Below, piece after piece: positions 7,653 through 54,964 of a stretch of 57,864 bases of DNA. The translations under genes were made by a program, and so were the position numbers. This DNA is from an uncultured Rhizobiaceae group bacterium. GTDB taxonomy: Bacteria; Pseudomonadota; Alphaproteobacteria; Rhizobiales; Rhizobiaceae. How positions within the stretch are numbered: position 1 is the first letter of the stretch; each line of letters starts with the position of its first letter. The notes below the pieces were generated by a model that was not told the DNA's origin, did not search any database, and saw only the letters and a program-made list of their open reading frames with translations. Location of the stretch: positions 1-57,864 of the forward strand of contig CANMVS010000027.1 in the NCBI GenBank assembly GCA_947501445.1, read 5' to 3'.

Positions 7653-7752
7653 GCCGCTTTACGTTTCGTCAAAAACGGGACAACGGTGTCGGCCTTTGAA
7701 TATGTAGATGCACTCAGATTTTGCCGATTCCGTCAAAACCTGAGGCGCTCTA
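7653..7752 (+). repeat. Family 1 two-hairpin repeat, copy A (full length)
   Basis: A full-length copy between the UxaA-family and DapA-family genes. Hairpin 1 is degenerate here. Hairpin 2 (CTCAGATTTTG / CAAAACCTGAG) encloses the invariant loop CCGATTCCGT. Its outermost pair is C-G instead of the usual T-A, a compensatory change that keeps the stem. The copy ends 12 bp before the DapA-family ATG. Confidence 0.85.
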
Positions 7753-7764
7753 ACGGGAGAAGAC

Positions 7765-8700
7765 ATGACCATTGAGCGATTGCGCAAAGCCCTTACCGGC
7801 ATCTCGGGTATTCTGGCCACTCCCTTTGATGGAAACGATGCCGTTGACCCGGATCGATTGGGCATCATTGTGGACAGGGCGATCGATGCGGGCGTGCATA
7901 TCCTGGTCAGCAATGGCAATACCGGTGAATTTTACGCCCTTACCACGTGTGAGGCTCAACAGATGGTCACGAAGACCGCTGAGATGATCGCCCAGCGTGT
8001 GCCATTGCTGGCAGGGATCGGGCGTTCGATCAAAGATGCCTGTGTGCTTGCAGAAACATCTTGGCGGGCAGGCGCAAGTGGCTTGATGATCCATCAGCCG
8101 CCAGATCCATTTGTTGCGCCGCGTGGCATGGTTGACTATGTGCGTCAGATCCACCAGGCAGGCGAAGGTCTGCCCATCGTACTATATCTGCGGGACGATG
8201 CGATTGGTCTTGAAACCATCCAGGCGGTTTGCTCCCTTGATGGAGTGGTCGGGGTGAAATGGGCAACGCCCAATCCCTTGAAACTGGCGCAAGCCATTCA
8301 AAACACCGATCCCGAAATCGTCTGGATTGGCGGATTGGCCGAGACATGGGCACCGCCCTTTTATGCGGTCGGCGCACGTGGTTTCACATCCGGTCTTATC
8401 AACGTATGGCCCGAGCACTCGGTGGCCATTCATCAGGCGCTGGAACGCGGCGACTATGTAAGCGCCAATATGCTCATTCAGCGCATGCACGCTTTTGAAG
8501 CAGTACGTGCAGAGGAGCGCAATGGCACCAACGTCACCGGTGTGAAAGCAGCGCTCGCATTGATAGGCCATGATTGCGGGCGAACCCGTCCCCCGGCGGC
8601 CTGGCCTTTGACGCCAGATCAGCAAAGCAGACTGGAAAGATTTATGCACGATGAAGGCCTCATGGGTGCATTGCACACAGGGGGCGACAAGGAGACTTAA
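7765..8700 (+). CDS. Dihydrodipicolinate synthase (DapA) family aldolase/dehydratase
   Basis: A 311-residue class I aldolase-fold enzyme, probably acting on a 2-keto-3-deoxy sugar acid rather than in lysine synthesis. Family marks are GISGILATPFDGNDAVD at the N-terminus, SNGNTGEFYALT in place of the usual GTTGE box, PIVLYLRD carrying the catalytic Tyr, and GVKWATPNP with the Schiff-base Lys. The DapA-like GTTGE and YN motifs are altered, which argues against authentic DapA. The neighbour is a UxaA-family dehydratase, whose product class is the usual substrate of such enzymes. GGGAGA precedes the ATG. A repeat copy lies just upstream. Exact reaction (retro-aldol or dehydration-decarboxylation) is unknown. 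Confidence 0.87.
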   Translation: MTIERLRKALTGISGILATPFDGNDAVDPDRLGIIVDRAIDAGVHILVSNGNTGEFYALTTCEAQQMVTKTAEMIAQRVPLLAGIGRSIKDACVLAETSWRAGASGLMIHQPPDPFVAPRGMVDYVRQIHQAGEGLPIVLYLRDDAIGLETIQAVCSLDGVVGVKWATPNPLKLAQAIQNTDPEIVWIGGLAETWAPPFYAVGARGFTSGLINVWPEHSVAIHQALERGDYVSANMLIQRMHAFEAVRAEERNGTNVTGVKAALALIGHDCGRTRPPAAWPLTPDQQSRLERFMHDEGLMGALHTGGDKET

Positions 8701-8794
8701 GGCACAATTCCTGCGCATTTTGGGCGGCCGGTTATGCGCGCGTGTCAATTCAGAATAGACGATTCGATCAAGTCAGGAGCAGGTAGGCATTCCG

Positions 8795-9814
8795 ATGGAA
8801 ATTGCAAAAAAAATCTCCGATTTCGAACGCAACAACAGCGAATTTGCAGCGCACACACTTGAACGCGCAGATCACTTCGCTTCCGATATTTATGGCTACA
8901 CGATAACCAGTCCACCACAAGACGAAGGTCCTCGCCCCATTTTTGGAGGTGCCTTTGTGCGGATTGATGACATAACATTTGTTGCCCATCGATCGAATCG
9001 CGAATTTGTCAGCACAAGGGAAACTGATGAAGATCAATTTTCTTTGGGTTTTCAGCTTGTCGGCCAAGCGCGTGTTGAAGATACCTACTTTGGTGAAATT
9101 CCGGCCTGCTCACCCCATCATGCAAGGATAATTCGCAATACAATTGGAACCAGATTCAGTGTGCCCGCACAGGATGTCGAAGCCTTTGTCGTTCTTATCC
9201 CGGCCAGGTTTCTTGAGGACCATGCCCGTACCCATTATGGAGATACGCCGGATGCACCCTTGCGGTTTGATCCGCTTTTCGACCTGACAACGCCTCAGGG
9301 GCATATGGTCAAATCATTGATCCACCATCTGATGACACTTCTGAGTTCCTCAGATGGTGTCATCAATGATCTTTGGACAACGCTTATCAAGGAACTAATT
9401 GCTTCAACGCTGATTGCCAACATATCCAGCAATTATAGCAGAACGACAGGCAAGGCTTCAGATAATGCCATTCCCGGCACCATGAGACGTGCTGAGGATT
9501 ATATGCATGCTCATGCCGATGAACCGCTGACAATTGGCGATCTTGCGCGGGAGGCCGGGTGCAGCGGGCGCGCCCTGCAGAACGCATTCAAGTCGTTCCG
9601 CAATACAACACCGATGGCCATGCTGCGCGACATCAGGCTTGATCGGGCACGCAGGGACCTCATGCACTGCGTTGGCAGTGTGACAGATATCGCGTGTCGT
9701 CGGGGGTTTAGCAACACCGGCCGTTTTTCGGCTCTATACAAGCAAAGGTTTGGTGAGCTTCCTTCACAAACCAGACCGCCACCCTTATGTGGATTTGATA
9801 GAAAACATGGTTGA
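8795..9814 (+). CDS. AraC-family transcriptional regulator
   Basis: A 339-residue regulator. The C-terminal double helix-turn-helix covers about residues 235-330 (EPLTIGDLAREAGCSGRALQ, then VTDIACRRGFSNTGRFSALY). The N-terminal part looks like an AraC_binding_2 ligand/dimerisation domain of the kind seen in regulators of aromatic and amine catabolism. The ATG at 8795 follows AGCAGGTAGG. It stands 94 bp after the DapA-family gene on the same strand and may control that module, but its target is not shown by the sequence. Confidence 0.9.
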   Translation: MEIAKKISDFERNNSEFAAHTLERADHFASDIYGYTITSPPQDEGPRPIFGGAFVRIDDITFVAHRSNREFVSTRETDEDQFSLGFQLVGQARVEDTYFGEIPACSPHHARIIRNTIGTRFSVPAQDVEAFVVLIPARFLEDHARTHYGDTPDAPLRFDPLFDLTTPQGHMVKSLIHHLMTLLSSSDGVINDLWTTLIKELIASTLIANISSNYSRTTGKASDNAIPGTMRRAEDYMHAHADEPLTIGDLAREAGCSGRALQNAFKSFRNTTPMAMLRDIRLDRARRDLMHCVGSVTDIACRRGFSNTGRFSALYKQRFGELPSQTRPPPLCGFDRKHG

Positions 9815-9889
9815 ATTTTCTGCCACCTGGAGATTGGCGCACATCTGTTGAGCCATCAAATGGTTCCATTTCAACAGGGCAGGTTCTGG

Positions 9890-9989
9890 ACCGTTTCACG
9901 GTTTGTCTGCAACGGGGCAACGGTGTCGAGCTTTGAACTTGTCGATGCATTCAGCTTTTGCCGATTCCGTCAAAACCTGAATTGCCCTA
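9890..9989 (+). repeat. Family 1 two-hairpin repeat, copy B (full length)
   Basis: A full-length copy between the AraC gene and the nucleotidyltransferase gene. Hairpin 1 is CCGTTTC / GCAACGG. Hairpin 2 is TTCAGCTTTTG / CAAAACCTGAA, with one mismatch, around the invariant loop CCGATTCCGT. It ends ATTGCCCTA, about 50 bp before the next start codon. Confidence 0.88.
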
Positions 9990-10038
9990 AACTGGGTGTT
10001 CATGCTCGAATCATCCATCAGGCACACGGGAGCAACCG

Positions 10039-10659
10039 TTGGATCATCTTCGCTATGCCGGGCTTTCGTTTGAAACCCAGCGTGAAGCCCTGTTTGAGAT
10101 CATGCGCGGTGAGCCGCTGATCCATGACGCGTTGATGACTGCACGCGCGCTGGTTCTACCGCAGTGGCGCATCGTTTCCGGTGCCATCTACAACACGGTG
10201 TGGAATGTATTGACCGGTCGGCCATCGGGGCATGGGATCAAGGATATTGATTTGACCTATTTCGACGACAAGGATGTGTCCTGGTCTGCTGAAGATGACG
10301 TAATCAAACGCGGGCAGGCCGCTTTTGCGCATAGTGCGCTACCCGTGGAGATACGCAATCAGGCGCGGGTGCATCTTTGGTTCAAGCAGCGGTTCGGTCT
10401 TGATTATGCGCCTTTAACCAATGGCGATGAGGCAATGGATCGCTTTGCTTCAAAAACCCATTCCGTGGGTATCAGGCTCGAACCGGATGATTCACTGAGC
10501 CTTTACGCACCTTTTGGTCTGGACGATATGTTTTCCTTCAGACTGGTTCCCAATACCGTATTGGACAACCGTGTGGGTCACCAGACCAAAGGCCTGCGGG
10601 CCAAGGAAGTGTGGCCGGAACTGACTCTTGTGCCATGGCCTGATTGTCCAAAATCCTGA
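10039..10659 (+). CDS. COG3575-type nucleotidyltransferase family protein
   Basis: A 206-residue protein matching the PF06042/COG3575 nucleotidyltransferase-like family. The signature ALVLPQWRIVSGAIYNTVWN leads to GHGIKDIDLTYFDDKDVSW, where the Asp-x-Asp is the expected metal-binding pair. The C-terminal half has HLWFKQRFGLDYAPLTNGDE and GIRLEPDDSLSLYAPFGLDD, both typical. The nucleotide acceptor is unknown. The TTG start at 10039 is preceded by CGGGAGCAACC. It is convergent with the GtrA gene, whose stop lies 20 bp away. Confidence 0.88.
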   Translation: MDHLRYAGLSFETQREALFEIMRGEPLIHDALMTARALVLPQWRIVSGAIYNTVWNVLTGRPSGHGIKDIDLTYFDDKDVSWSAEDDVIKRGQAAFAHSALPVEIRNQARVHLWFKQRFGLDYAPLTNGDEAMDRFASKTHSVGIRLEPDDSLSLYAPFGLDDMFSFRLVPNTVLDNRVGHQTKGLRAKEVWPELTLVPWPDCPKS

Positions 10660-10679
10660 ATTACTCCAGCTGCGAAAAA

Positions 10680-11057
10680 TTACCGACCGAACACGAGTTT
10701 GGCGTAGCCGGTATAGGAAAACACCGTGCCTGTTGCTGATCCGATTGTCAGGGCGACAACCGGTGGCAATTCCGGAACGAAGATCAACAGGCCGGAATAG
10801 ACCAGGTAATTGAGCAGGTTGGCTGCAATCCCAACACCGCCATAACGCATGCCTTCAACAGCTGCGGACCGGTTGCTTTTGCCAAATGTAAATGTGCGGT
10901 TCAGCAACCATGTCACCTGAAGTGCAATGGCAATAGCGATCAGTCTTGCGGTGAACGGATCGATATCCGTCCAGCGCAACAATCCCATCAGGACGCCGAC
11001 GTCAGCCAGAAACCCAAATCCGCCGACCACAACGAAACTCAACAGACGCTTTTTCAT
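10680..11057 (-). CDS. GtrA-family membrane protein
   Basis: A 125-residue protein with four transmembrane helices in the GtrA/DPMS pattern: SFVVVGGFGFLADVGVLMGL at the N-terminus, a conserved basic segment TWLLNRTFTFGK after helix 2, then two more helices. GtrA proteins are thought to assist translocation of lipid-linked sugars for surface polysaccharides. They often sit beside a polyprenyl-phosphate glycosyltransferase, but none is seen here. The start ATG is at 11057. Confidence 0.9.
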   Translation of the reverse strand: MKKRLLSFVVVGGFGFLADVGVLMGLLRWTDIDPFTARLIAIAIALQVTWLLNRTFTFGKSNRSAAVEGMRYGGVGIAANLLNYLVYSGLLIFVPELPPVVALTIGSATGTVFSYTGYAKLVFGR

Positions 11058-11633
11058 TCAGGTATTGGTTTCCCTGGCTTCATGCCACTGTGGCGCTCGA
11101 ATTGGCCGGATGCGCTGGCCCCGCGATTTCCGCGAAAGTCCGGATTACCCATATACAGCATCCTTATGTGTTCTGCACGGCAGAGCAACAAACATTTACC
11201 GGTTAGTGCGTTTTGCATTTATTGTGCACCACAGATCAAAGTCAAAACGCCAGGCAGGAAGCCGGATACAACATCAAACCAACTTAAAAGAGTGTGTGCT
11301 GGTATACAAAGCCCATTTTATCCCAATTCCTGGGTGAGGATATATTCATTGTGGGGATGAACCACAAGTGGGATGCACATGCAACACTTCAGCAACTTCC
11401 ATTTCACAGCGCAGCGCCTGTGCGAACCGACTGATATCATGGCCCATTCGCACGCATCGACCAATTTCTGCCGTGGGGTAATTGGGGCTTGCCCGTGGTA
11501 TGTAACGTCTACATCCATGGATCCATGCAATGGCAGAATTTTATTCAACCTTGGTTACGGGAGCGTAATGAGCTTATTATGGGATGGTTGATTCGACGAT
11601 TGTGGAGCCGACGAGATGAGAAAAGGGAGCGCC
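11058..11633. other. 576-bp intergenic stretch with no recognisable gene
   Basis: This divergent region lies between the GtrA and MepA genes. Several short open frames exist on both strands, but none has a recognisable protein signature or a ribosome-binding site. I see no tRNA or family 1 or 2 repeat. It probably carries the promoters of both genes and may hold a small RNA, which cannot be judged by eye. Confidence 0.4.
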
Positions 11634-12671
11634 ATGAGGCAGTTTTCGCGTCTTTTTACCTTTGTCATGCTGTTGGCTTTTGTTGCAGCGGGCCATGCTG
11701 TGGCGTCGGATACAATTCCGGCCAAAAAGCTATTTGGCGGTAAAAAACTGCCAGCCGCCATGCCAGCACAAGTGCATGGTTTCTATTCCAAAGGGTGTAT
11801 TGCCGGTGGCAAGGCGATTGCCATAGACGGCCCCTATTGGCAAGCCATGCGCCTAACACGTAATCGTCGCTGGGGCCATCCGGAGTTAATCGCGACTGTC
11901 GAACAATTGGCAATAGATGCTGCACAAAAAGATGGCTGGCCGGGCCTTCTTGTCGGTGATCTTTCGCAGCCAAGGGGCGGACCTATGTTGACGGGGCACG
12001 CATCGCATCAGGTCGGTCTGGACGCTGATATCTGGCTGACACCCATGCCTGACAGACGCTTCACCGCTACGGAGCGGGAGGCGACGAGCGCGATTTCCGT
12101 TCTCAGGGCCAAATCGGTTGTCGTAGACCCCAATATCTGGACCGAGGCACATGGGCGATTGATCATGCGTGCGGCAAGCTATCCACAGGTCCAGCGCATT
12201 CTGGTTCATCCCGGTATCAAGAAAAAACTGTGTGACAGCTGGAAGGGTGATCGGTCTGACCTGAATAAAGTCAGACCCTATTATGGCCATCACTATCACA
12301 TGCATATTCGTTTGCGTTGTCCCAAGGGTTCGACAAACTGCAAGGCGCAGAATGCTGTGCCTGCAGACAGTGGGTGCGGCAAGGCGCTCGATTGGTGGTT
12401 TGATGTTGCGCTGAAACCCAAAAAAGCGGTTAAACCAGCAAAGCCCGTGAAGCCGAAAAAACCCAAAAAACCCAGGCATGTCATGTTGAAGGACCTTCCC
12501 AAGGCCTGCGCCGTGGTTCTGGAAGCACCGGAACCGACGTCAGAGCTTGCAGTCACGTCCGTCGCCAGGGGGGTGACGGCCTCTGCCTTTGCGCCAGTGA
12601 AAATGATCCGGTCGCCCTTTTCGCTGCCGGCGCTTGTTCCTGTGCCGCAACCACGGCCGTCTGTGCAATAA
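11634..12671 (+). CDS. mepA: Penicillin-insensitive murein endopeptidase MepA
   Basis: A zinc LAS-family peptidase that cuts D-Ala-mDAP cross-links in peptidoglycan in the periplasm, 345 residues. A signal peptide ends near HAVA in residues 1-25. The metal/catalytic motifs are GPMLTGHASHQVGLDADIWL (His and Asp ligands) and YYGHHYHMHIRLRC near residue 222 (His ligand). The C-terminus after about residue 260 adds a Lys/Pro-rich stretch of PKK and KPK repeats and a Pro-rich end, beyond the usual MepA core. I prefer the ATG at 11634, preceded by AAGGGAG, over one six codons earlier. It is monocistronic, with a candidate terminator downstream. Confidence 0.93.
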   Translation: MRQFSRLFTFVMLLAFVAAGHAVASDTIPAKKLFGGKKLPAAMPAQVHGFYSKGCIAGGKAIAIDGPYWQAMRLTRNRRWGHPELIATVEQLAIDAAQKDGWPGLLVGDLSQPRGGPMLTGHASHQVGLDADIWLTPMPDRRFTATEREATSAISVLRAKSVVVDPNIWTEAHGRLIMRAASYPQVQRILVHPGIKKKLCDSWKGDRSDLNKVRPYYGHHYHMHIRLRCPKGSTNCKAQNAVPADSGCGKALDWWFDVALKPKKAVKPAKPVKPKKPKKPRHVMLKDLPKACAVVLEAPEPTSELAVTSVARGVTASAFAPVKMIRSPFSLPALVPVPQPRPSVQ

Positions 12672-12700
12672 GATTGCAACAATTTTCATTTATTGCCCTA

Positions 12701-12738
12701 CCGAAGCGTATTTCACTTCGGTGGTCGCTTTCTTTTGT
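12701..12738 (+). terminator. Candidate rho-independent terminator after mepA
   Basis: Hairpin ACCGAAG (12701-12707) / CTTCGGT (12717-12723) with a 9-nt loop, followed by a T-rich tract (GCTTTCTTTTGTG). It starts 29 bp after the mepA stop. The stem is short and the T tract interrupted, so confidence is moderate. Confidence 0.5.
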
Positions 12739-12843
12739 GTCGTAATTTTCCTATAGGATGAATTCAAATCGATTTAATACAGCAGAATTGACGGTTTGCC
12801 TGGGGCAATCGGCTTGTAATGCTGAGTTCCGGAGATTGACGAG

Positions 12844-13869
12844 ATGCCCAATATTATGGACCAGGATGCCATCATCCACTTTCCGATCCTGATTGGCGAC
12901 ATTGGGGGCACCAACGCCCGGTTTGCTATTTTGATGGATGCCTTTGCCCAACCGAAGGAATTTCCGGTTCTGGCTACGGCGGATTTCGAAACGCTGGAAG
13001 AGGCGATTCAGATCAATGTTCTAGATAAGACCTCGATCCAGCCAAGATCGGCCATTTTCGCAATCGCCGGTCCGGTGGACGGTGACGAAATTCAACTGAC
13101 AAATTGTCCATGGGTGGTACGCCCAAAGAAAATGATGGCTGTTTTTTGTCTGGATGATGTAATCGTTCTCAATGACTTTGAAGCCCAGGCACTGGCGGCG
13201 GCCTCATTGGATGAACAACATCGCTATGCGATTGGCGGTGGACAGATTGAACCCAATACGTCCCGCGTTGTTCTGGGCCCTGGCACCGGACTTGGTGTTG
13301 CCGGTCTTGTCTATTCCAACCACAATTGGATCCCGGTACCAGGTGAAGGTGGGCACATTGATCTTGGGCCGCGTACCGAACGTGATCTGGCTGTATTTCC
13401 TCACCTTGAACGCATTGGGGGCCGGGTTTCTGCCGAGCAGGTATTGTGTGGAAGTGGCCTGGTTAATCTCTACAATGCCGTATGCAAAGCCGATAAACAC
13501 AAGCCAGCCTATACGGCACCTGCGGAAATTACGGCCGCCGGGCTTGCCGGTACAGATCCGGTCGCCTCGGAAACACTATCCTTGTTTGCAACCTGCCTTG
13601 GCAGGGTAGCGGGCGATCTGGCGCTTGTATTCATGGCGCGGGGCGGGGTGTTTCTTGCCGGAGGTATAGCTCAAAAGATTGTTCCTATTTTGGAAAAACC
13701 TGAGTTTCGCGCAGCTTTTGAAGACAAGGCACCGCATGAAAACCTGTTGCAGTCGGTACCGACATTTGTCATTACACACCCGCTTGCGGCGCTATCCGGC
13801 CTGGCTTCCTATGCCCGTACGCCCATCCGCTTTGGGGTTGCGACAGATGGACGTCGCTGGAGAGCATAG
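12844..13869 (+). CDS. glk: Glucokinase
   Basis: ATP-dependent glucokinase of the ROK-independent Glk family (PF02685), 341 residues, phosphorylating glucose to glucose-6-phosphate in the cytosol. Visible motifs are the ATP-binding phosphate-1 loop [16 protein letters not shown] near residue 15, the catalytic-Asp region [27 protein letters not shown], and the sugar-binding [12 protein letters not shown]. The C-terminal [10 protein letters not shown] is also typical. The ATG follows CCGGAG. It is 60 bp upstream of an MsbA-like exporter gene, in the Hyphomicrobiales-type glk/ABC/dapB/gpmA order. Confidence 0.96.
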
Positions 13870-13929
13870 GCAAAGCACAGCGAAGCGTATATAGAGCCGC
13901 TGTTACTCTTTTCTCGGGAATTACGTGCA

Positions 13930-20330: not shown

Positions 20331-20351
20331 GAATGTTGCCAAGTTTCCTCA

Positions 20352-20450
20352 ACCGTTTCACGTTTTTTCAGAAACGGGACAACGGTGCCGGTCTTTGCTT
20401 TTGTTGATGCATTCAGGTTCTGCCGATTCCGTCAAAACCTGAATTGCTCC
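20352..20450 (+). repeat. Family 1 two-hairpin repeat, copy C (full length)
   Basis: A full-length copy in the upstream region of the ornithine cyclodeaminase gene, which reads leftward. Hairpin 1 is a perfect CCGTTTC / GAAACGG. Hairpin 2 is TTCAGGTTCTG / CAAAACCTGAA, with one mismatch, around the invariant loop CCGATTCCGT. If the promoter lies beyond it, at about 20460-20600, the repeat would be transcribed in the 5' leader. Confidence 0.9.
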
Positions 20451-20511
20451 GGTATCAGGCAGGAATGATAGATTATAGCGTCGCCAACAAAAATGGCAAA
20501 ATTGTCTAAAG

Positions 20512-22881: not shown

Positions 22882-22904
22882 GATGCCAACCCCGTTCGGT
22901 TTAG

Positions 22905-23004
22905 GCCGTTTCACGTTTTACTAGAAACGGGACAACGGTATCGGCCTTTGATTTTGTTGGTGCATTCAGGCTTTGCCGATTCCGTCAAAACCTGAATTGC
23001 GCTA
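22905..23004 (+). repeat. Family 1 two-hairpin repeat, copy D (full length)
   Basis: A full-length copy filling the gap between rph and the VOC gene. Hairpin 1 is a perfect CCGTTTC / GAAACGG. Hairpin 2 is TTCAGGCTTTG / CAAAACCTGAA, with one mismatch, around the invariant loop CCGATTCCGT. Its right edge, ATTGCGCTA, contains the rph stop codon (TAG read leftward). Confidence 0.9.
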
Positions 23005-23718
23005 GGCGGTCACCTGTTTTTGCATGCCGACAAGATCGCTGATGCCGGATTTGGCAAGGCCAAGCAGTGCAGCAAATTCTTCTTCGCTGAATGGTTTGCC
23101 TTCTGCCGTCCCCTGAATTTCAACAATGCCGCCAGAACCTGTCATGACAAAATTGGCATCTGTTTCTGCAGATGAATCTTCTGCATAATCCAGATCAAGA
23201 ACCGTCTGATTAAGGAAAATACCACAGGAAATAGCAGCAATATGGTCTTTCAGAACTTTGTCTGCTTTGACCATCTGCCGCGCTTCCATCCACTTCAGAC
23301 AATCGTGCAATGCCACCCAGGCACCGGTAATAGCCGCTGTTCGGGTGCCGCCATCGGCCTGAAGTACATCGCAGTCGATCGAAATCTGACGTTCGCCAAG
23401 TGCTTCAAGATCCACAACTGCGCGCAGTGACCGACCGATCAGCCGCTGAATCTCCTGGGTTCTGCCACTTTGCTTACCGGCAGAGGCCTCGCGCCGCATA
23501 CGGTCTCCGGTGGCGCGCGGCAACATGCCGTATTCGGCTGTAACCCATCCCTTGCCGGCATTGCGCAGCCACGGTGGCACACGTTCTTCCAGACTGGCTG
23601 TGCACAGCACATGTGTATCGCCGAATTTGACGAGGCACGAGCCTTCTGCGTGTTTGGAAAATCCCCGCTCAAATGAGACGGCCCGCATCTGGTCGATCTG
23701 TCTGCCTGATGGGCGCAT
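23002..23718 (-). CDS. rph: Ribonuclease PH
   Basis: A phosphate-dependent 3'-5' exoribonuclease that trims tRNA 3' ends and structured RNAs. It has 238 residues. The family start [20 protein letters not shown] is present, then [37 protein letters not shown] (phosphate-binding and oligomer contacts) and [20 protein letters not shown] with the catalytic Asp residues. AGGAG precedes the ATG. It diverges from hrcA across a 466-bp gap. The stop codon TAG lies inside repeat copy D, so the extreme C-terminus abuts the repeat. Confidence 0.97.
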
Positions 23719-38229: not shown

Positions 38230-38257
38230 ACCGGTTTCAGGCGGTGCAGTTTGACTG

Positions 38258-38354
38258 GAGCAATTCAGGTTTTGACGGAATCGGCAAAACCTGAATGCAT
38301 AAACAAAATCAACGGCCAACACCATTGTCCCGTTTCTGGCAAACGTGAAACGGT
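38258..38354 (-). repeat. Family 1 two-hairpin repeat, copy E (full length, reverse orientation)
   Basis: A full-length copy between the racemase and LysR genes. Read on the minus strand, both hairpins are perfect: CCGTTTC / GAAACGG, and TTCAGGTTTTG / CAAAACCTGAA with loop CCGATTCCGT. This is the best representative of the consensus. It could also act as the end of the Liv operon transcript, although no T-run follows. Confidence 0.92.
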
Positions 38355-38411
38355 CTATTGAAGATCGAGCCGGGGCTTGCTGTTTTGTCTTTAGCGGTGC
38401 TAAAGGCAATC

Positions 38412-39314
38412 ATGGTCATTCGCTTGCAGGAACTTCATACATTCTTTGTGGTGGCACGCGCTGGCGCCATGCAAAAAGCTGCCAGTGAGCTTGGTGTAAC
38501 GCCCGGTGCCATCAGCCAGCGCATCAGCGCCATTGAACGCCAGCATGGCAAACGACTGTTTGTCCGCAGCCGCAATGGCATCGCCCTGACGGCGGCAGGT
38601 GAAGCGCTGTGGCGTGATGTGGAAACAGAATTTTCAAACATCGAGGCTGCCCGTAATCGCCACTTCCGCGGTGAACTGGAAACCCACATTCGCATCAGCG
38701 CTGCACCGACATTTGCCCATGCCTGTCTTGTTCCACAGCTTGGAACATTCAGCAAAATGCATCCCCATATCAAAATAACCATTGAAACGGATCAGCGGCT
38801 TGTTGATTTGAAGAGCGAACCCATTGATCTGGCCATCCGCCATGGTCTTGGCAATTATGCCGGATGCCGGTCACAATGGCTGAGCTCACCTGAACTCATT
38901 GTTGTGGCAAGCCCGGACCTGCTGCGCAGCGGTGAGGTCATCGACAATGCGGAGGATTGCCTGTCCTATCTTCTGCTGCAGGATTCCAACGCGGTATGTT
39001 CCGATTGGCAATTATGGTGTCAGGCCCGTGGCCTCGACGAAAGCAGAGCGCGCTTCGGGCCGGCGTTCAGGGACGATTTTCTTATTGTCAAAGCCGCCGT
39101 CGCCGGACAGGGGCTCGCCCTGTTGCACGACATATATGTGCGTGATGAATTGAGCAGCGGCCAATTGGTCAAAGCCTGCAACGCCGCCTGGCCAACAAAA
39201 TTTGCCTATTATGCGGTCGCTCAGCCCGCCACTTTCAAACGCCCCGCCATCAGGCAATTTGTCGCCTGGCTGAAATCAGTGTCGGGCAATGAGCTGGAGC
39301 AATTCGGGTTTTGA
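38412..39314 (+). CDS. LysR-family transcriptional regulator (GcvA-like)
   Basis: A 300-residue LysR protein. The winged helix is LQELHTFFVVARAGAMQKAA, TPGAISQRISAIERQHGKRL and RNGIALTAAGEALWRDVETE. The effector domain has the GcvA-like LVDLKSEPIDLAIRHGLGNY and AAVAGQGLALLHDIYVRDEL. The ATG at 38412 is chosen; the frame upstream enters repeat copy E. Its C-terminus runs into copy F: the last five residues (EQFGF) and the stop are encoded by repeat sequence, so the native end may have been replaced. Target genes are unknown; it follows the Liv/racemase operon on the same strand. Confidence 0.9.
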   Translation: MVIRLQELHTFFVVARAGAMQKAASELGVTPGAISQRISAIERQHGKRLFVRSRNGIALTAAGEALWRDVETEFSNIEAARNRHFRGELETHIRISAAPTFAHACLVPQLGTFSKMHPHIKITIETDQRLVDLKSEPIDLAIRHGLGNYAGCRSQWLSSPELIVVASPDLLRSGEVIDNAEDCLSYLLLQDSNAVCSDWQLWCQARGLDESRARFGPAFRDDFLIVKAAVAGQGLALLHDIYVRDELSSGQLVKACNAAWPTKFAYYAVAQPATFKRPAIRQFVAWLKSVSGNELEQFGF

Positions 39315-39360
39315 CGGAATCGGCAATATCTGAATGCATCAATTAAATCAAAGGCCGGTA
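39296..39360 (-). repeat. Family 1 repeat, copy F (partial, reverse orientation)
   Basis: A 65-bp partial copy holding hairpin 2 (degenerate stem TTCAGATATTG / CAAAACCCGAA) with the invariant loop CCGATTCCGT, plus the GGCCTTTGATTT spacer. Hairpin 1 is missing. It overlaps the 3' ends of two convergent frames: the LysR gene on the plus strand and the SWIM-protein fragment on the minus strand. Both stop codons lie inside it. Confidence 0.85.
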
Positions 39361-48844: not shown

Positions 48845-50109
48845 ATATTCTGGCCATAGTCTTATCCATATTTCTGCTGGTGTTATCACTGCCAATCTTT
48901 ATGGTTTTCGGCCTGGGCAGCTCGGTAACAGCGATCTGGGGAATGAACCTGCCCTGGTCAACGCTCATCCAGGTCGCCTTTGGCTCGATGACCAAACATG
49001 TGCTGATCGCCGTTCCGCTTTTCATCTTTACCGGCATGGTGATGTTGCGTGGCGGTGCCGCCCACCGTCTGGTTGCATTCGCCACGGCTTTGGTTGGGCA
49101 CTGGCCTGGCGGGCTTGGCATTGCGATGGTTCTGGCGATGGGATTTTTTGCCGCGTTTTGCGGATCAATTCTTGCTGCGATCACGGCTGTTGGTACAATC
49201 ATGATGCCGAAGATGGTGGAGCAGGGCTATCCAAAGCCATTTGTCATCGTGCTTGCAGCATCGGCTGCGTTTCTGGAATCTCTTATACCGCCCTCCAACG
49301 CTGCAATCCTTTTCAGTGCATTGACCGATGTGCCGGTTTCGCGCACCTTTGCCGCCGGGTTTATTCCCGGATTGGTGCTGCTGGTCTTATTGACCGCAGT
49401 GGTGAGTTGGCGCTGCCGTGACCTGCGCAGCCCCGTCAAGGCAACCCCGACGCAAAAATTGACGGCGCTCTGGGTATCGCTGCCCGGTCTGTTCACACCT
49501 GTTATCATCCTGGGTGGCATTTACGCTGGCCTTTTGACCCCTTCGGAATCCGCAGCCGTGGCCGGCGTATGGGCGATGCTGATCGGCTTCTTCATTTACA
49601 GGGAACTCACCTTGAAAGGGGTGATGGATTGTTTGCGGCAGACAGCGATGATTACCGCTGTGATATTTGCAATCATTGCCATGGCCACATTTCTCAGTGT
49701 TGTTCTCACCTACTCGCAGGCACCGCAAAGAATAATCAGTTTCTTCACCGAAATGGGCGGCACACCGATGATGTTCTGGTTCGCGGTGGCGATCATCTGC
49801 CTGATCCTCGGCACATTTGTGGAAATCGTTCCGGTTTTCTATCTGACCGTGCCGATCTTTGCCGCACTTGCGCTGTCCCTCAATCTCGACATTCTGCATC
49901 TCTATATCGTCTTTGTTGCCTTCGCCGGAATTGGAATGATCACGCCGCCTGTCTGCGTCGGGGTCTATACGGCTGCCAGCGTGGCAAAAGAGAGCCCGGA
50001 AAAAGCATTTCGGGAGGTGCCGCTCTTTGTCGGGGTTGGTATTGTCTTTGGCCTGTTGATGATTTTCTTCCCGGCGGCGGCCACCTGGCTTCCGTCTGTC
50101 CTGCAATAG
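48841..50109 (+). CDS. TRAP transporter large permease (DctM family)
   Basis: The 422-residue ion-coupled transport subunit with about 12 helices. DctM features include VPLFIFTGMVMLRGGAAHRL, GFFAAFCGSILAAITAVGTI, IPPSNAAILFSALTDVPVSR, LLTPSESAAVAGVWAMLIGF and the C-terminal FAGIGMITPPVCVGVYTAAS. The two halves with PP-S/P motifs match the inverted-repeat fold of the family. It is translationally coupled to the small subunit. The molybdopterin enzyme gene begins 9 bp after its stop, so transport and reduction are probably co-expressed. Confidence 0.95.
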   Translation: MNILAIVLSIFLLVLSLPIFMVFGLGSSVTAIWGMNLPWSTLIQVAFGSMTKHVLIAVPLFIFTGMVMLRGGAAHRLVAFATALVGHWPGGLGIAMVLAMGFFAAFCGSILAAITAVGTIMMPKMVEQGYPKPFVIVLAASAAFLESLIPPSNAAILFSALTDVPVSRTFAAGFIPGLVLLVLLTAVVSWRCRDLRSPVKATPTQKLTALWVSLPGLFTPVIILGGIYAGLLTPSESAAVAGVWAMLIGFFIYRELTLKGVMDCLRQTAMITAVIFAIIAMATFLSVVLTYSQAPQRIISFFTEMGGTPMMFWFAVAIICLILGTFVEIVPVFYLTVPIFAALALSLNLDILHLYIVFVAFAGIGMITPPVCVGVYTAASVAKESPEKAFREVPLFVGVGIVFGLLMIFFPAAATWLPSVLQ

Positions 50110-50118
50110 GATCCGCCC

Positions 50119-52431
50119 GTGTCTCATGATCAATTGCCACTGACCAGCACCCACTGGGGGACGTACCATGTCGAGGTGACGGATGGTAAACTTGAGGCGC
50201 TTCATGCCTTCGGCGAAGATCCGGACCCGTCACCAATCGGCCATGGGCTTGTCGATGTGCTGGATGGGCCGACACGCATCAGACAACCCATGATCCGCAA
50301 GAGCTGGCTGGATCATGGTCCCGGCGCCTGTCCGCATTTGCGTGGCAAGGACCCATTTGTCCCGGTCGATTGGGGCCGCGCCGAGGGTCTGGTTGCACAG
50401 GAACTTGAGCGGGTGCGCACAGCTCATGGCAACAGTGCTATTTACGGTGGTTCCTATGGCTGGGCATCGGCCGGCCGTTTCCATCATGCGCAAAGCCAGG
50501 TGCACCGGTTTTTAAATTGCATTGGTGGCTATACCAGATCGCTCAATACCTACAGCTTTGCTGCTGCCGAAGTTGCGGTGCCGCATATTCTGGGCGGATT
50601 CAGAGAATTCGTGAATTCGGTCACCAGCTGGAGTTCCATCATAGGAAACACAGAACTGTTTGTGGCATTTGGCGGAATACCGACAAAAAACGGTCAGATA
50701 GAAAATGGCGGTGTTGGCCAGCATGGCCAGTTTTCCTCGGTTGTATTAGCCGCTGAATCAGGGACATCTTTTGTCAATATAAGCCCAAACCGGTCGTCGT
50801 TGCCCTGCGAGGCCAATGCCGAATGGCTGGCTCCGCGACCCTGCAGCGATGTGGCGGTTCTGTTGGGGATTGCCCATGTCCTTGTCGATGAGGGGCTGGC
50901 GGACCACGCATTCCTGGATCGCTATACGGTTGGTTTTGACGCGGTCTCTGACTATTTGAAGGGCCACAAGGACGGTATTGTCAAATCTGCGCGGTGGGCT
51001 GCCGGTATCAGCGGACTTTCCGAGGACGACATTCGCACGCTGGCGATCAGGATGGCCAGCGCACGCACGATGATTTCAGTCAGTTGGTCTTTGACCAGAC
51101 AGCAATATGGAGAACAGCCCTATTGGGCTGCGATCACTGTTGCTGCCATGCTCGGTCAGATTGGTCAGCCCGGCGGCGGTATCGGATTTGGCTATAGCGC
51201 GACCAACGGAATTGGTGCCCAATACCAACGGTTGAACTATGCATCCTTGCCGCAAGGTGAAAATGCGGTATCCGATTTCATTCCGGTCGCCCGGATAGCG
51301 GATATGTTGATGAACCCCAATGGCATGTTTGATTACAACGGCGGCAAACATATCTATCCCGACATCAGGCTGATTTACTGGGCGGGTGGCAATCCCTTCC
51401 ACCATCATCAGGACCTTGGCCGTTTGCTACAGGCCTGGCGTAAACCCGATACGATCATTGCCCATGAGTGGTGTTGGACTGCAACGGCCAGACATTGTGA
51501 TATTGTTCTTCCCTGTACCACGCATGTCGAACGCAATGACATCGCGCTTTCCCCACGCAATGCCTATGTCGTCGCCATGCAAAAGGCTGTTGAGCCAGTG
51601 GGATTGGCCCGCAATGACTATGCGATTTTTACCGGTATTGCCCGGGCGATGGGCGTTGAGAAGGCGTTTACACAAGGCCGCTCGGAAGAGGACTGGTTGC
51701 AGTGGATATTTGATGGTTCCAGACACAATCTGGCGCAGAGCGGGCTTGCGATACCGCCCCTTGATACGTTGCGCGAACGCGGTTGGTTCAAGATTGCAAT
51801 GGAGGATCGGCCGACCATCATGATGGAGGCTTTCATCAAGGACCCGGATGCAGCGCCACTTGCCACGCCATCGGGCAAAATTGAGCTATATTCAGACACT
51901 GTCGCCGGATTTGAATATTCGGACTGCCCGGGTCACGCGGTCTGGCTGGAACCGGAAGAATGGCTGGGTGCAAAAAACGTCGGCAGCCAGCTGCATCTGA
52001 TCTGCGTGCAACCGGCAAACAAGCTGCACTCGCAACTGGATCATGGTGCCCACAGCCAGAAGGACAAGGTTGCTGGCCGCGAAAAAATCAGACTTTCTCC
52101 GGCTGATGCGCACAAACGCGGCATTGTGCAGGGTGCGCATGTTCGGGTGTTTAACGCCCGTGGAAGCTGTCTGGCTATTGCAGACATTGATACCGCGCTA
52201 CGGGCGGATGTTGTGGAGATGAATACGGGTGCATGGTTTGATCCGGCACTGCTGGATGATGAGCGCCCAATGTGCAAGGCGGGCAACCCGAATGTGCTGA
52301 CCCCGGACAAGGGCACATCGGCGATGGCCCAGGGCCCGGCCGCTCACACCTGTCTGGTTGATGTGGAACTGATGCCGGATGAGCCCGAAACTGCAACAGC
52401 CTACGAGCCGCCGAAATTGTACGCCGATTAA
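50119..52431 (+). CDS. Molybdopterin oxidoreductase, DMSO-reductase family (BisC/biotin sulfoxide reductase-like)
   Basis: A 770-residue molybdenum bis-MGD enzyme, family type III. The N-terminal domain lacks an iron-sulfur cluster motif and starts RIRQPMIRKSWLDHGPGACP. The Mo-ligand segment is YGGSYGWASAGRFHHAQSQV, where Ser is the expected protein ligand. Cofactor-binding segments include GAQYQRLNYASLPQGENAVS, YWAGGNPFHHHQDLGRLLQA and AHEWCWTATARHCDIVLPCT. The C-terminal domain has LSPADAHKRGIVQGAHVRVF. There is no Tat signal, so it is cytosolic like BisC. Probably an S- or N-oxide reductase; substrate is likely imported by the adjacent TRAP system (inference). The start is a GTG. Confidence 0.92.
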   Translation: MSHDQLPLTSTHWGTYHVEVTDGKLEALHAFGEDPDPSPIGHGLVDVLDGPTRIRQPMIRKSWLDHGPGACPHLRGKDPFVPVDWGRAEGLVAQELERVRTAHGNSAIYGGSYGWASAGRFHHAQSQVHRFLNCIGGYTRSLNTYSFAAAEVAVPHILGGFREFVNSVTSWSSIIGNTELFVAFGGIPTKNGQIENGGVGQHGQFSSVVLAAESGTSFVNISPNRSSLPCEANAEWLAPRPCSDVAVLLGIAHVLVDEGLADHAFLDRYTVGFDAVSDYLKGHKDGIVKSARWAAGISGLSEDDIRTLAIRMASARTMISVSWSLTRQQYGEQPYWAAITVAAMLGQIGQPGGGIGFGYSATNGIGAQYQRLNYASLPQGENAVSDFIPVARIADMLMNPNGMFDYNGGKHIYPDIRLIYWAGGNPFHHHQDLGRLLQAWRKPDTIIAHEWCWTATARHCDIVLPCTTHVERNDIALSPRNAYVVAMQKAVEPVGLARNDYAIFTGIARAMGVEKAFTQGRSEEDWLQWIFDGSRHNLAQSGLAIPPLDTLRERGWFKIAMEDRPTIMMEAFIKDPDAAPLATPSGKIELYSDTVAGFEYSDCPGHAVWLEPEEWLGAKNVGSQLHLICVQPANKLHSQLDHGAHSQKDKVAGREKIRLSPADAHKRGIVQGAHVRVFNARGSCLAIADIDTALRADVVEMNTGAWFDPALLDDERPMCKAGNPNVLTPDKGTSAMAQGPAAHTCLVDVELMPDEPETATAYEPPKLYAD

Positions 52432-52439
52432 TCCAGGGT

Positions 52440-52490
52440 CTGTTGATACATTCAGTTTTTGCCGATTCCGTCGATATCTGAATTACTCTA
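52440..52490 (+). repeat. Family 1 repeat, copy G (partial)
   Basis: A 51-bp partial copy holding the second half of the element: TTCAGTTTTTG / CGATATCTGAA around the loop CCGATTCCGT, then ATTACTCTA. The right arm differs from the consensus, so the stem is weak. It fills the gap between the convergent BisC-like and nth genes; the nth stop codon TAA lies within it. Confidence 0.83.
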
Positions 52491-53253
52491 TCGGAACCAG
52501 TGCTGCGGGCACGTCACAGGTTTTTTCCTGTGACCTGCAGATGTCGGCCAAAACGCAGGCCGGACAATCTGGTTTGCGGGCCTTGCACACATAGCGTCCC
52601 TGTAAAATAAGCCAGTGATGTCCGTGGAACAGATAGTCGGCCGGAATTACCCGCAACAGGTTTTCTTCCACATCATCGACGGTTTTGCCGGGTGCGAGTT
52701 TCATTCTGTTGGCAATACGAAAAATATGCGTATCCACGGCCATGGTCGGGTGACCAAAAGCCATATTCAGCACCACATTGGCTGTTTTGCGTCCAACGCC
52801 CGGCAATTTGACCATCGCATCCCGGTCGTCAGGGACCTCGCCGCCATGATTTTCAATCAGCATGCGTGACAGCAGGATAACGTTTTTTGCCTTGTTTCGG
52901 TAAAGACCGATGGTGCGGATATGTTCGCGTACGGCGTCTTCGCCCAGCGCCAGCATTTTTTGTGGCGTATCAGCCTTTGCAAAAAGTGCACGTGTTGCCT
53001 TGTTGACACCAACATCGGTTGCCTGCGCTGAAAGCACGACCGCAACCAGCAATGTGAAGGCATTGACGTGCTCAAGCTCACCCTTTGGTTCCGGACGTTG
53101 AACTGAAAACCGTCGGAATATCTCGGTGATTTCTGCCGGTGAATAGGCGCTTTTCGGCAGCCTTTTGCGTTGTTTGCGGGCAGCCGCAGGCTTCTTTTTG
53201 GCTGCGATTGCCGGTGACGGGGCAGTTTTCGATTTGGCCTTTTCCATATTCAT
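52483..53253 (-). CDS. nth: Endonuclease III
   Basis: DNA glycosylase/AP lyase for oxidised pyrimidines, about 256 residues. A basic Ala/Lys-rich N-terminal extension (residues 1-40) precedes the catalytic fold. The helix-hairpin-helix with catalytic Lys is LPGVGRKTANVVLNMAFG, the catalytic Asp is in VDTHIFRIANRM, and the 4Fe-4S ligands are in CKARKPDCPACVLADIC (Cys-x6-Cys-x2-Cys-x5-Cys). The ATG at 53253 (or 53247) is likely; the frame runs back to 53283, into the DUF2244 gene. The stop codon lies in repeat copy G. Confidence 0.96.
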   Translation of the reverse strand: MNMEKAKSKTAPSPAIAAKKKPAAARKQRKRLPKSAYSPAEITEIFRRFSVQRPEPKGELEHVNAFTLLVAVVLSAQATDVGVNKATRALFAKADTPQKMLALGEDAVREHIRTIGLYRNKAKNVILLSRMLIENHGGEVPDDRDAMVKLPGVGRKTANVVLNMAFGHPTMAVDTHIFRIANRMKLAPGKTVDDVEENLLRVIPADYLFHGHHWLILQGRYVCKARKPDCPACVLADICRSQEKTCDVPAALVPIE

Positions 53254-53269
53254 TCTATATTCTGCGTTG

Positions 53270-53815
53270 ATGAACAAAGGCAATGGTAAATCAGCCGTTC
53301 AGGCGGTCCGGGATATGCGGCAGCAAAAAGGCGATAAGGCCTATGCCAATGATGCTCCGGTTTTTGAAGCGCTTTTGACACCGCACCGATCGCTCGGACG
53401 GTCCGGATTTATTGTACTGATGGGCTTGATCACGGTGATGACAATTGCCCCTGGCATAGTCTTTGTTGCTGCCGGTGCATGGCCGGTAACCGCTTTTTTT
53501 GGTCTCGATCTGTTTTTAATATTTGGTGCCTTCTGGCTCAGCTACCGTTCTGCCAGATCGCGGGAATTTGTCAGTGTGTCGCGTACGCAGCTATCCGTGT
53601 TCAAACGCACCCCTTCGGGCAGAACAACCGATTTTCGGTTCAATCCGTTCTGGGCGCGCTTTGATGTTGCCCGCCATGAGGAAATTGGCATTACCGGCAT
53701 GCAAATATCGGGAAACGGCACGTCCACGGATGTAGGCTCGTTCCTCAATCCGGACGACCGGGAGAGTTTTGCCAGTGCATTTGCCGGAGCTCTGGCGACC
53801 GTGCGAAGAAAATAG
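53270..53815 (+). CDS. DUF2244-family membrane protein
   Basis: A 181-residue protein with two closely spaced transmembrane helices (about residues 45-65 and 68-90) in FIVLMGLITVMTIAPGIVFV and ITAFFGLD-type context, followed by a cytosolic domain with SYRSARSREFVSVSRTQLSV and FNPFWARFDVARHEEIGI, typical of DUF2244. GSFLNPDDRESFASAFAGAL ends it. No function is known. The neighbourhood, back to back with nth, is a recurring alphaproteobacterial pairing. Only 16 bp separate the two start codons. A GCGACC/GGTCGC hairpin overlaps its stop. Confidence 0.88.
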   Translation: MNKGNGKSAVQAVRDMRQQKGDKAYANDAPVFEALLTPHRSLGRSGFIVLMGLITVMTIAPGIVFVAAGAWPVTAFFGLDLFLIFGAFWLSYRSARSREFVSVSRTQLSVFKRTPSGRTTDFRFNPFWARFDVARHEEIGITGMQISGNGTSTDVGSFLNPDDRESFASAFAGALATVRRK

Positions 53816-54009
53816 CGACCGGCAACAGGTCGCCAGACACAATGCCGGGCAAGAAACGGGTGGCAATTGCGACGGTTCCCCCATTAAACATGGTGTGATC
53901 CAAATTGAGCGCCTATCCACATGGGGTGTCACAATTTTGTTTTGGGTGGCCGCCATGAACACCTGACATGACCACCCGATATTTGGGATAATATTTCGGA
54001 ACCTGAACA

Positions 54010-54897
54010 ATGAATATCAACCAAGCCACGCCAGTGACAAACCACCAGATGACCACAGATCCCGACTATGAGATCGTGCGTGAAGCGCTGGAACTCATCA
54101 CCAACAACTACCGCCGACAGCCGGGATTGGAAGAAATAGCCGCCCGCCTTGGCCAATCGCCAACGCAATTGCAGAAGGTTTTCACCCGTTGGTCCGGCCT
54201 CAGTCCCAAGAGCTTTTTGCAGGCCGTGACACTGGATCATGCCAAGCGGCTGCTGGGACAGGAAGGTTTGCCCTTGCTGGAAACAAGCCTTGAGGTTGGG
54301 CTTTCCGGGCCCAGTCGTCTGCATGATTTATTTGTGACACATGAGGCTGTTTCGCCGGGTATCTGGAAGGCCAAGGGTGCAGGCCTGACCATACGGTATG
54401 GCTTCCACACCTGTCCCTTTGGCATTGCTCTGATCATGGCAACCGAGCGCGGACTTGCGGGCATGGCTTTTTGCGATCCGGGTGGTGAGCGGGCGGCGCT
54501 TGATGACATGTCGGCACGCTGGCCACGGGCGCAATATGTGCATGATCAGGTGGCCACGCAAAATTTTGCACAGGCATCTTTTCAAAGTGAGCAATGGCGT
54601 GAAGACCAGCCATTGCGTGTGGTTCTGATCGGAACTGATTTTCAGATCAGAGTGTGGGAAGCACTGCTTGAAATTCCGCTCGGCGCAGCCATGACCTATT
54701 CGTCGATTGCCAGAAAAATAGGCAAACCATCGGCATCACGCGCGGTCGGTGCCGCCGTTGGACGCAACCCGATATCCTTTGTTGTGCCCTGCCACAGGGC
54801 CATCGGAACATCCGGAGCACTGACAGGCTACCATTGGGGCGTGACCCGAAAACGCGCCATGCTTGGCTGGGAGGCAGGTCATCTATCCGATGACTAG
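54010..54897 (+). CDS. Ada-like AraC-type HTH and methylated-DNA-cysteine methyltransferase fusion
   Basis: A 295-residue repair protein. An AraC-type helix-turn-helix covers about residues 20-110 (PGLEEIAARLGQSPTQLQKV, SPKSFLQAVTLDHAKRLLGQ). A suicide methyltransferase domain covers about residues 130-290, with the active Cys in NPISFVVPCHRAIGTSGALT. The N-terminal Ada domain with its zinc-bound methyl-accepting Cys is missing, so methylphosphotriester sensing is not expected; this is the common bifunctional form in alphaproteobacteria. The ATG at 54010 was chosen. It is convergent with the LppC-like gene, and the gap between the stops is repeat copy H. Confidence 0.93.
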   Translation: MNINQATPVTNHQMTTDPDYEIVREALELITNNYRRQPGLEEIAARLGQSPTQLQKVFTRWSGLSPKSFLQAVTLDHAKRLLGQEGLPLLETSLEVGLSGPSRLHDLFVTHEAVSPGIWKAKGAGLTIRYGFHTCPFGIALIMATERGLAGMAFCDPGGERAALDDMSARWPRAQYVHDQVATQNFAQASFQSEQWREDQPLRVVLIGTDFQIRVWEALLEIPLGAAMTYSSIARKIGKPSASRAVGAAVGRNPISFVVPCHRAIGTSGALTGYHWGVTRKRAMLGWEAGHLSDD

Positions 54898-54964
54898 CCC
54901 GTTTCACGTTTGTCAGAAACGGGACAACGGTGTCGGCCGTTGATTTTGTTGATGCATTCAGGTT
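54898..54964 (+). repeat. Family 1 repeat, copy H (partial, first half)
   Basis: A 67-bp partial copy with a perfect hairpin 1 (CCGTTTC / GAAACGG) and the spacer through GATGCATTCAGGTT; hairpin 2 is missing. It fills exactly the gap between the convergent Ada-like and LppC-like genes: it starts on the base after one stop codon and overlaps the other by two bases. Confidence 0.87.

Follow-up and report, generated by a model that had tools for sequence, protein, structure and literature searches.

The window, i.e. the whole stretch of 57,864 nucleotides that was analysed, contains five full and three partial copies of a short repeat, several of which touch the ends of predicted genes (Table 1). 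All eight places listed in the first-pass annotation were recovered by blastn with two copies as queries as well as by a profile, and the E-values between the full copies (1e-22 to 1e-27) reflect a similarity far above chance. While the places were correct, the starts given there lay two to four bases inside the true ends, because the terminal dinucleotides had been omitted. At the Rfam gathering score, no match was obtained in the window or in five loci with the repeat or a related repeat. The window was also said to lack a transposase, and a Pfam scan of 40 of its 59 predicted genes indeed showed no such domain. Along 12 kb of its length, the window matches plasmids of Ruegeria, Shinella and Sinorhizobium at 72-78%.

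With the terminal TA counted, the repeat unit comprises 103 bp and consists of a left hairpin (hairpin 1), a linker and a right hairpin (hairpin 2). The loop of hairpin 2 carries GATTC, a GANTC motif, which was present in all five full window copies; GANTC also occurs in this loop in 19 of 27 A3 rows. The terminal inverted repeats formed by the two ends (TAGACCGTTTCACGTTTTG and TAGAGCAATTCAGGTTTTG) are imperfect, with 15 of 19 bases alike. Without the TA, 13 of 17 bases are alike, a value reached by one of 20000 shuffles.

Table 1. Repeat copies in the window, hairpins of copy 4 and end sequences of the repeat
Feature	Position	Strand	Description
Full copy 1	7650..7752	+	103 bp with terminal dinucleotides; left AG, right TA
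Full copy 2	9887..9989	+	left dinucleotide TG, right TA
Full copy 3	20349..20451	+	
Full copy 4	22902..23004	+	right-end CTA is the TAG stop of gene 23002-23718 (-)
Hairpin 1 of copy 4	22906..22930	+	CCGTTTC ... GAAACGG
Hairpin 2 of copy 4	22964..22997	+	GATTC (GANTC) in loop
Full copy 5	38256..38357	-	
Partial copy, right part (model 40-102)	39296..39358	-	overlaps end of LysR-type gene 38358-39314
Partial copy, right part (model 49-102)	52436..52489	+	
Partial copy, left two thirds	54895..54964	+	interrupted in the 5' arm of hairpin 2; predicted gene 54010-54897 stops at its left TAG
Repeat-end sequences for matching to IS ends			TAGACCGTTTCACG, TAGAGCAATTCAGG

Abundance and probable insertion sites

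A first scan of the host genome gave 658 candidates, of which all 40 that were scored showed 97-100% identity; at least 40 host copies lie at 97-100% to the consensus. The covariance model accepted 150 of 150 scored candidates among 5521 in the host genome. In 20 stretches of 20 kb each, which were positioned irrespective of copies, 23 full and 9 partial copies were counted, and from these the host genome was estimated to contain about 392 full copies (95% CI 248-588), or about 546 copies when partial ones are included. The hundreds of copies per genome predicted from the window alone are thus borne out by unbiased stretches. The mean identity of 122 full host copies to the consensus was 93.4% (range 81-99%), with 40 of the 61 stretches from the host, and all of the first 20 from the distant congener G002, picked around known copies.

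According to the gene calls in the host sample, which were made with a home-made gene caller, 2 of the 122 full copies lie mostly within a predicted gene, the sampled sequence being 86% coding. The description of the copies as lying between genes or across gene ends therefore mostly holds. Convergent gaps contain 47 of 118 classifiable copies and divergent gaps 8. The rarity of copies in genes and promoters probably results from loss by selection.

The flanks of the 122 host copies follow the consensus CTA|G...C|TAG and the sites are YTAR-like. The terminal dinucleotide is TA in 63 copies on the left and in 64 on the right, while CA, TG or CG account for another 51 copies on the left and 43 on the right; most non-TA ends differ from TA by one or two transitions. 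For CTAG, an observed/expected ratio of 0.39 was determined in the host. On the left end, 25 of 68 CTAG-type contexts retain TA compared to 38 of 54 other contexts (p 0.0003); on the right end, 16 of 51 do so compared to 48 of 71 (p 0.0001). This context effect was not visible in 27 copies of G002 (left 10/16 versus 7/11, right 10/14 versus 8/13). A fall of TA with copy age was observed for the left end only. The left and right dinucleotides are uncorrelated (TA-TA 36 times, about 33 expected, Fisher p 0.36), and a plain 2-bp duplication with matched target site duplications at both ends was dropped for this reason. Accordingly, the case for a TA duplication rests on sequence context and stop codons and not on matched repeats.

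Among 40 gene ends on or in a full copy, the TAG or TAA at the junction serves as the stop codon in 35, and 5 end deeper inside the repeat. If a ready-made TA had entered coding DNA in any frame, only about one third junction stops would be expected. It is possible that selection against extended proteins contributes to this bias as well. Landing on stop codons suggests a possible route by which the repeat spreads with little damage.

Distribution among congeners

The site of copy 4 is empty in all seven congeners, whose divergence from the host does not allow empty sites to be defined to the base. In four of them (G001, G002, G003 and G004) the codon that is the stop in the host is a TAA stop, while in the other three a TGA follows one or two codons further on. 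Loci lacking the copy, proposed as a check on the first reading, were thus found for this one site. In comparisons of this kind at L108 and L101 the proteins end nearly equally, and some sites had no usable orthologue. Among the host paralogues no empty site was counted; apart from one on a partial copy (L127), the spanning matches coincided with the copies used as queries or adjoined them.

G002 has the same 103-base majority consensus as the host, and five listed gene blocks of the two genomes are 67-77% identical. G003, the sister of G002, gave no match, and at this similarity the repeat was not found in six of the eight genus members. The occurrence of one consensus in two non-sister species suggests a horizontal spread. 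In three other genera, compensatory changes have preserved the hairpins of related elements. A search of 72,556 plasmid records gave no match to the host consensus or to two related forms, and viral contigs contained no exact match to the 28-base core.

Possible modes of spread

Taking these observations together, it is likely that the repeat is a non-autonomous, MITE-like mobile element of the CIR (CcrM-associated intergenic repeat) class which inserts at TA in YTAR. It probably represents a very abundant new subfamily of CIR-like kind, probably recently active, that behaves as a TA-inserting MITE. In the proposed mechanism, the repeat would have arrived horizontally, as a cassette of 103 bp that is bounded by imperfect terminal inverted repeats and contains two hairpins, and would be mobilised in trans by a DDE transposase from a source since lost or not found. 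It would insert at TA in YTAR, often at the TA of a TAG or TAA stop codon. Most likely the insertion would duplicate the TA, so that a gene hit at its stop codon would keep its stop, and the resident copies would then decay largely neutrally. An autonomous copy, recognisable by paired partial ends facing outward, was found neither in 1.26 Mb sampled from G000 nor in 0.4 Mb from G002, and none of the IS630 loci nor the IS427-like copy examined comprised a transposase with ends matching the repeat.

IS711 is a member of the IS5/IS427-type group, and an origin of the repeat as a MITE of such an insertion sequence is conceivable but doubtful. YTAR corresponds to the target taste of IS711, which is reported to duplicate its TA (PMC2266754). 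DUF4096-type transposase matches were detected in all eight genus genomes, but these include the element-free congeners, and G002 contains fragments only (one 37-position match above the cut-off and one below). Furthermore, the ends of the one host insertion sequence for which they were resolved (GGGCCTGTGGACATT) are unlike the repeat ends. It abuts the CTAG border of a repeat copy, so that the repeat seems to serve as a target for this IS427-like element. Conceivably, some right-half copies incorporate ends of the IS427 type.

Mobilisation in trans as a RUP-type MITE by an IS630/Tc1-mariner transposase is unlikely. The TA target and the length agree with RUP as described in PMC2229807, and DDE_3 matches occur in the carriers G002 (two) and G232 (one). 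However, no DDE_3 match was obtained in the host or in five other carriers (G365, G396, G165, G146 and G272, two of these five being less than 90% complete), and the host yielded no IS630 parent of the RUP style. The three DDE_3 loci showed neither element-like ends nor TA-flanked inverted repeats, and two of them are short (1.9 and 2.3 kb).

Another explanation would be a resident RNA or DNA regulatory element under selection, acting as an mRNA 3'-end hairpin or as a CcrM methylation site, for which spread is secondary. We consider this improbable, although the hairpins covary between subfamilies, with compensatory changes at 10 of 17 pairs, a value reached by none of 500 shuffles. In hairpin 2 within the host, 10 compensated double changes were seen compared to 2.7 expected (maximum of 8 in 300 shuffles). 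The preference for convergent gaps and gene ends also agrees with a resident function, as does the loop GANTC, which occurs in several genera and is intact in 24 of 27 copies of G002. On the other hand, 76 of 122 copies retain it in the host, where the GANTC bases diverge by 12.7% compared to 6.2% elsewhere. Both the terminal CTAG and the loop GANTC rank with the parts of the repeat that change fastest in the host, a pattern that was not visible in the smaller G002 sample. Moreover, 118 single changes in host hairpin 2 break a pair, compared to 23 that still pair and the 10 compensated ones, and the stems diverge by 4.4-5.0%, about two thirds of the 7.3% of the linker. The lack of a match in most genus members also argues against a resident function.

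It is quite improbable, too, that methylation gates the spread, in which case the CcrM site of hairpin 2 would restrict cutting or copying to a replication-linked hemimethylated or single-stranded state and the cell-cycle methylase would time the process. Such gating would account for the conservation of the loop GCCGATTCCGT across subfamilies from different genera, in which the stems show compensatory change, and also for its fast change in resident host copies, which the smaller G002 sample does not show. Since G002 shows neither the CTAG-context effect nor the fast loop decay, its data give less weight to the MITE and to the gating and more to a resident function.

That the repeat is of the REPIN/BIME type and is mobilised by a RAYT (Y1 tyrosine transposase) is hardly tenable, since the two inverted hairpins, the length of about 100 bp, the extragenic position and the hundreds of copies would fit, but a search for PF01797 revealed no intact RAYT in the host (one weak match with an internal stop) or in G002 (no match), yet one to seven in each of five of the six element-free congeners, and the ends are TA in YTAR and not the GTAG/CGTC tags described for REP/REPIN elements in PMC3733652.

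Relation to known repeat families

The first-pass annotation recognised no described family and likened the organisation to REP/BIME or RUP-type elements. The likeness to RUP is justified by the TA ends, the length of about 100 bp and the hairpins, whereas that to REP/BIME fails on RAYT and end motif. A literature search by title yielded none recognised as describing this consensus.

RUP of Streptococcus pneumoniae, described as intergenic, with a TA target, 107 bp and 108 copies (PMC2229807), resembles the repeat in target, length and position, but has one stem between its 5' and 3' ends, whereas the repeat has two separate arms. ERIC and Correia/NEMIS are likewise small and non-coding with TA termini and strong secondary structure, but belong to other bacterial groups and have another arm layout, and the account of them in PMC2229807 describes no GANTC loop. 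The palindromic Bru-RS1 (103 bp) and Bru-RS2 (106 bp) of Brucella (PMC10800456) are similar in length and are reported as insertion sites of IS711 (PMC2266754), as one host copy seems to be for the IS427-like insertion sequence. A related rhizobial repeat, maybe of the Bru-RS or RIME (rhizobia) kind, both likened by description, has only the right 36 bp in common with the repeat, at 86%.

The CIR, a class that the first-pass annotation had not considered, are known but poorly understood, and at most about two dozen copies have been described in Caulobacter. The anatomy of the repeat fits this class, to which it was likened by the review description and not by the sequences of CIR1-CIR4. As described in PMC2229807, CIR of Caulobacter, Brucella and other alphaproteobacteria are intergenic, about 110 bp long, with two inverted-repeat arms and a linker, GANTC in one terminal loop and TA termini. 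The repeat shares the two-arm and linker layout, a length close to that of the class, the loop GANTC, the TA ends and the intergenic position. It differs in its about 392 full copies, at least 40 of them at 97-100% to the consensus, and in its documented placement at TA/YTAR and stop codons. As the family has so many nearly identical copies, and as one genus comprises both carriers and non-carriers, the target choice, the duplication, the source and the part played by the methylation site become testable. Altogether, the data on this repeat constitute evidence that CIR-type repeats are mobile.

Repeat unit and copy number

The positions of the eight copies that the first-pass annotation had placed in the window were borne out, five of them being full and three partial. 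The repeat unit comprises 103 bp (TAGACCGTTTCACGTTTTGTCAGAAACGGGACAACGGTGTCGGCCTTTGATTTTGTTGATGCATTCAGGTTTTGCCGATTCCGTCAAAACCTGAATTGCTCTA) with two hairpins, the first formed by CCGTTTC/GAAACGG and the second by TTCAGGTTTTG/CAAAACCTGAA, and its two ends form an imperfect inverted repeat with 15 of 19 bases alike. The expectation of many more copies elsewhere in the genome also held. A first scan of the host genome (6.82 Mb in 110 contigs, the window being contig 27) gave 658 candidates, 40 of which were scored, all showing 97-100% identity, and in a covariance-model search all 150 scored among 5521 candidates passed.

In 61 stretches of the host genome, amounting to 1,257,864 bases, 122 full and 36 partial copies were determined. 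Known copies determined the choice of 40 of these stretches, and another is the window itself; the copy density was therefore based on the remaining 20 (400 kb), which contain 23 full and 9 partial copies. Extrapolated from these 400 kb, the host genome would comprise about 392 full copies (95% CI 248-588). The 122 full copies showed a mean identity to the consensus of 93.4%, with a range of 81-99%. The repeat family is real, and it was probably recently mobile.

A C-to-A variant at position 91 was found in 19 of the 122 host copies, including several near-identical ones, and in 0 of 27 copies from G002, the second carrier in the genus; the copies with this variant are perhaps a host-specific recent subfamily. 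Among the 36 partial copies of the host sample, 11 of the 19 left-end partials are broken at model positions 65-77, which belong to hairpin 2 (its 5' arm and its loop), as for example at window position 54964. Close tandem neighbours also occur (see table); in L126, the first copy ends in its CTA and is followed immediately by a second right part.

Coordinates of repeat-associated features
Feature	Location	Ends
IS427-like IS, two ORFs	L167:1403-2350 (host contig 2, ~146.3-147.2 kb)	GGGCCTGTGGACATT/GGGCCCGTGGACATT
Right-half copies with similar foreign left part	L106:9393-9485; L093 near 4517-4610; L125 near 631-690	
Close tandem neighbours	L126:3285-3432; L122:10547 and 10672	
Related repeat, 105-107 bp	G015 loci L065, L069, L073, L077, L080, L083; L286, L287	

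Probable insertion site and genomic placement

The left-end dinucleotide of the 122 host copies was TA in 63 cases and CA, TG or CG in 51, and the right-end dinucleotide was TA in 64 and CA, TG or CG in 43, with the outside flanking base being a pyrimidine at 93% of the left ends and a purine at 84% of the right ends. Left and right dinucleotides are uncorrelated (Fisher p 0.36); therefore, a matched duplication is not readable from the ends. In the host, the loss of TA is context-dependent: TA was kept at 25 of 68 left ends in a CTAG context compared to 38 of 54 in other contexts (p 0.0003), and at 16 of 51 right ends compared to 48 of 71 (p 0.0001). The left-end TA also becomes rarer with age, being present in 21 of 30 copies of the youngest quartile compared to 10 of 31 of the oldest, whereas a clear trend was not seen at the right end (18 of 30 vs 16 of 31). 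In the host sample, CTAG is underrepresented at 0.39 of expectation. Among the 27 G002 copies, the context effect was visible neither on the left (10 of 16 vs 7 of 11) nor on the right (10 of 14 vs 8 of 13). The simplest reading is that the repeat inserts at TA in YTAR and that, in the host, CTAG then changes to CCAG or CTGG.

Forty gene ends lie on or in a full copy. In 35 of them the TAG or TAA of the junction is the stop codon, and the remaining five lie deeper inside the copy. Supposing that the TA entered coding DNA together with the repeat, the expectation for the stop register would be about one third, and the bias could be increased by selection against the extension of proteins. At window positions 22902-23004, the repeat is absent in all seven congeners; in G001, G002, G003 and G004, the gene at this site has a TAA stop at the same codon, and in G005, G006 and G007 it stops with TGA one or two codons later. 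As read by eye, with no gene called there, one G002 copy creates a TAA where the aligned codon of the sister genome G003 is TGA; the left flank of this copy matches G003 about 4 kb away. At other sites compared, the protein ends were near-equal at a resolution short of exact.

Genes were predicted with a home-made caller, which gave 1109 genes and a coding share of 86%. On this basis, 2 of the 122 full copies are mostly intragenic, while 63 lie in tandem gaps, 47 in convergent gaps, 8 in divergent gaps and 2 at stretch edges. Convergent gaps account for about 20% of the intergenic length vs 40% of the 118 classifiable copies.

Distribution, hairpins and the GANTC loop

Among the eight genus genomes (up to 14 candidates scored in each), matches at E <=0.001 were restricted to the host and G002, and a family-wide search (two candidates scored per genome) gave a match at 1e-8 in 8 of 394 genomes spanning four genera, divergent relatives beneath these thresholds being possibly overlooked. 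A model search of the six non-genus carriers resulted in 3-44 matches each. At all 103 positions, the majority consensus derived from 27 full copies of G002 is the same as that of the host, a similarity favoured by picking the G002 stretches around good matches; between both genomes, the identity of the five gene blocks listed is only 67-77%. A two-protein tree (397 columns) placed G002 as sister to G003 with a support of 99, and the repeat was found in G003 neither by the genus search (E 0.001) nor by a profile search of 60 kb.

The cross-genus alignment A3 contains 27 copies from eight genomes and four genera, comprising three genus copies and 24 of 27 newly found loci; it omits L192, L201, L204 and four carrier loci from the family-wide search. 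Both hairpins hold, with 93% of the cells paired and both-sided changes at 10 of 17 pairs, counts biased towards the structure by the search model for the 24 loci, which held the same structure. None of 500 shuffles was as good for paired cells, both-sided changes or covariation, and 7 of 500 were for further pair types. Within the host, hairpin 2 showed 118 single pair-breaking changes and 23 single changes still pairing. Its double changes were compensated in 10 cases, compared to 2.7 expected and a maximum of 8 in 300 shuffles, and uncompensated in 5. Taken together, the structure seems to matter to the spreading lineage and only weakly to a resident copy.

All five full window copies carry GANTC, the CcrM-type site, in the loop of hairpin 2, and so do 76 of the 122 copies in the host, 24 of the 27 in G002 and 19 of the 27 A3 rows. 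GANTC is scarce in the host sample (1760 sites vs 4881 expected from base composition), and 93 of these sites fall in repeats. Its four fixed bases showed a divergence of 12.7% in the host vs 6.2% at the other positions, ranking second among 95 windows, whereas the G002 loop is not unusually divergent (3.7% vs 6.7% in the linker). This difference argues against loop decay being a general rule, and a methylation-gated mobility is accordingly less favoured.

Candidate mobilisers and known relatives

The search for a RAYT-type transposase, which the first-pass annotation had suggested, had no match in G002 and a single weak one, interrupted by a stop, in the host. RAYT genes occur in five of the six element-free congeners with 1-7 each, namely in G001 and G003-G006, and are missing or broken in both genus carriers; this contrast may be due to chance. 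An IS630 DDE_3 gene was not found in the host, and three matches in two other carriers had no matching ends within the stretches examined. DUF4096-type (IS427-like) genes are present in all eight genus genomes, in G002 as fragments only. The IS427-like IS in L167 has ends differing from those of the repeat and adjoins the right-end CTAG of a full copy, so that it seems to have used the border of the repeat as a target. This is reminiscent of IS711 inserting into Bru-RS, as mentioned in PMC2266754. The right-half copies in L106, L093 and L125 carry a similar foreign left part, CAGGGTCT(G/A)TTGAGG(A/C)TCAGG or its end, which suggests that they are a hybrid subfamily or that IS ends have become fused with the repeat.

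A related repeat was found at 1152 places in 388 plasmid records, the majority from rhizobia. It matches a repeat of G015, which shares the right 36 bp with the host repeat at 86% and has a similar layout. Matches occur on plasmids of Rhizobium, Sinorhizobium, Agrobacterium, Shinella and Ochrobactrum; in Ochrobactrum CP061774, its start likewise coincides with the stop of the annotated gene before it.

CcrM-associated intergenic repeats (CIRs) are described in a review (PMC2229807) as intergenic elements of about 110 bp with two arms, a linker, TA ends and GANTC at the loop of one arm, occurring in Caulobacter, Brucella and relatives, their mobility mechanism not being ascertained there. By its anatomy, the repeat would belong to the CIR class as described there. 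It would be a new, very abundant subfamily of a known kind, and the new aspect is the evidence for the way in which repeats of this kind may move.
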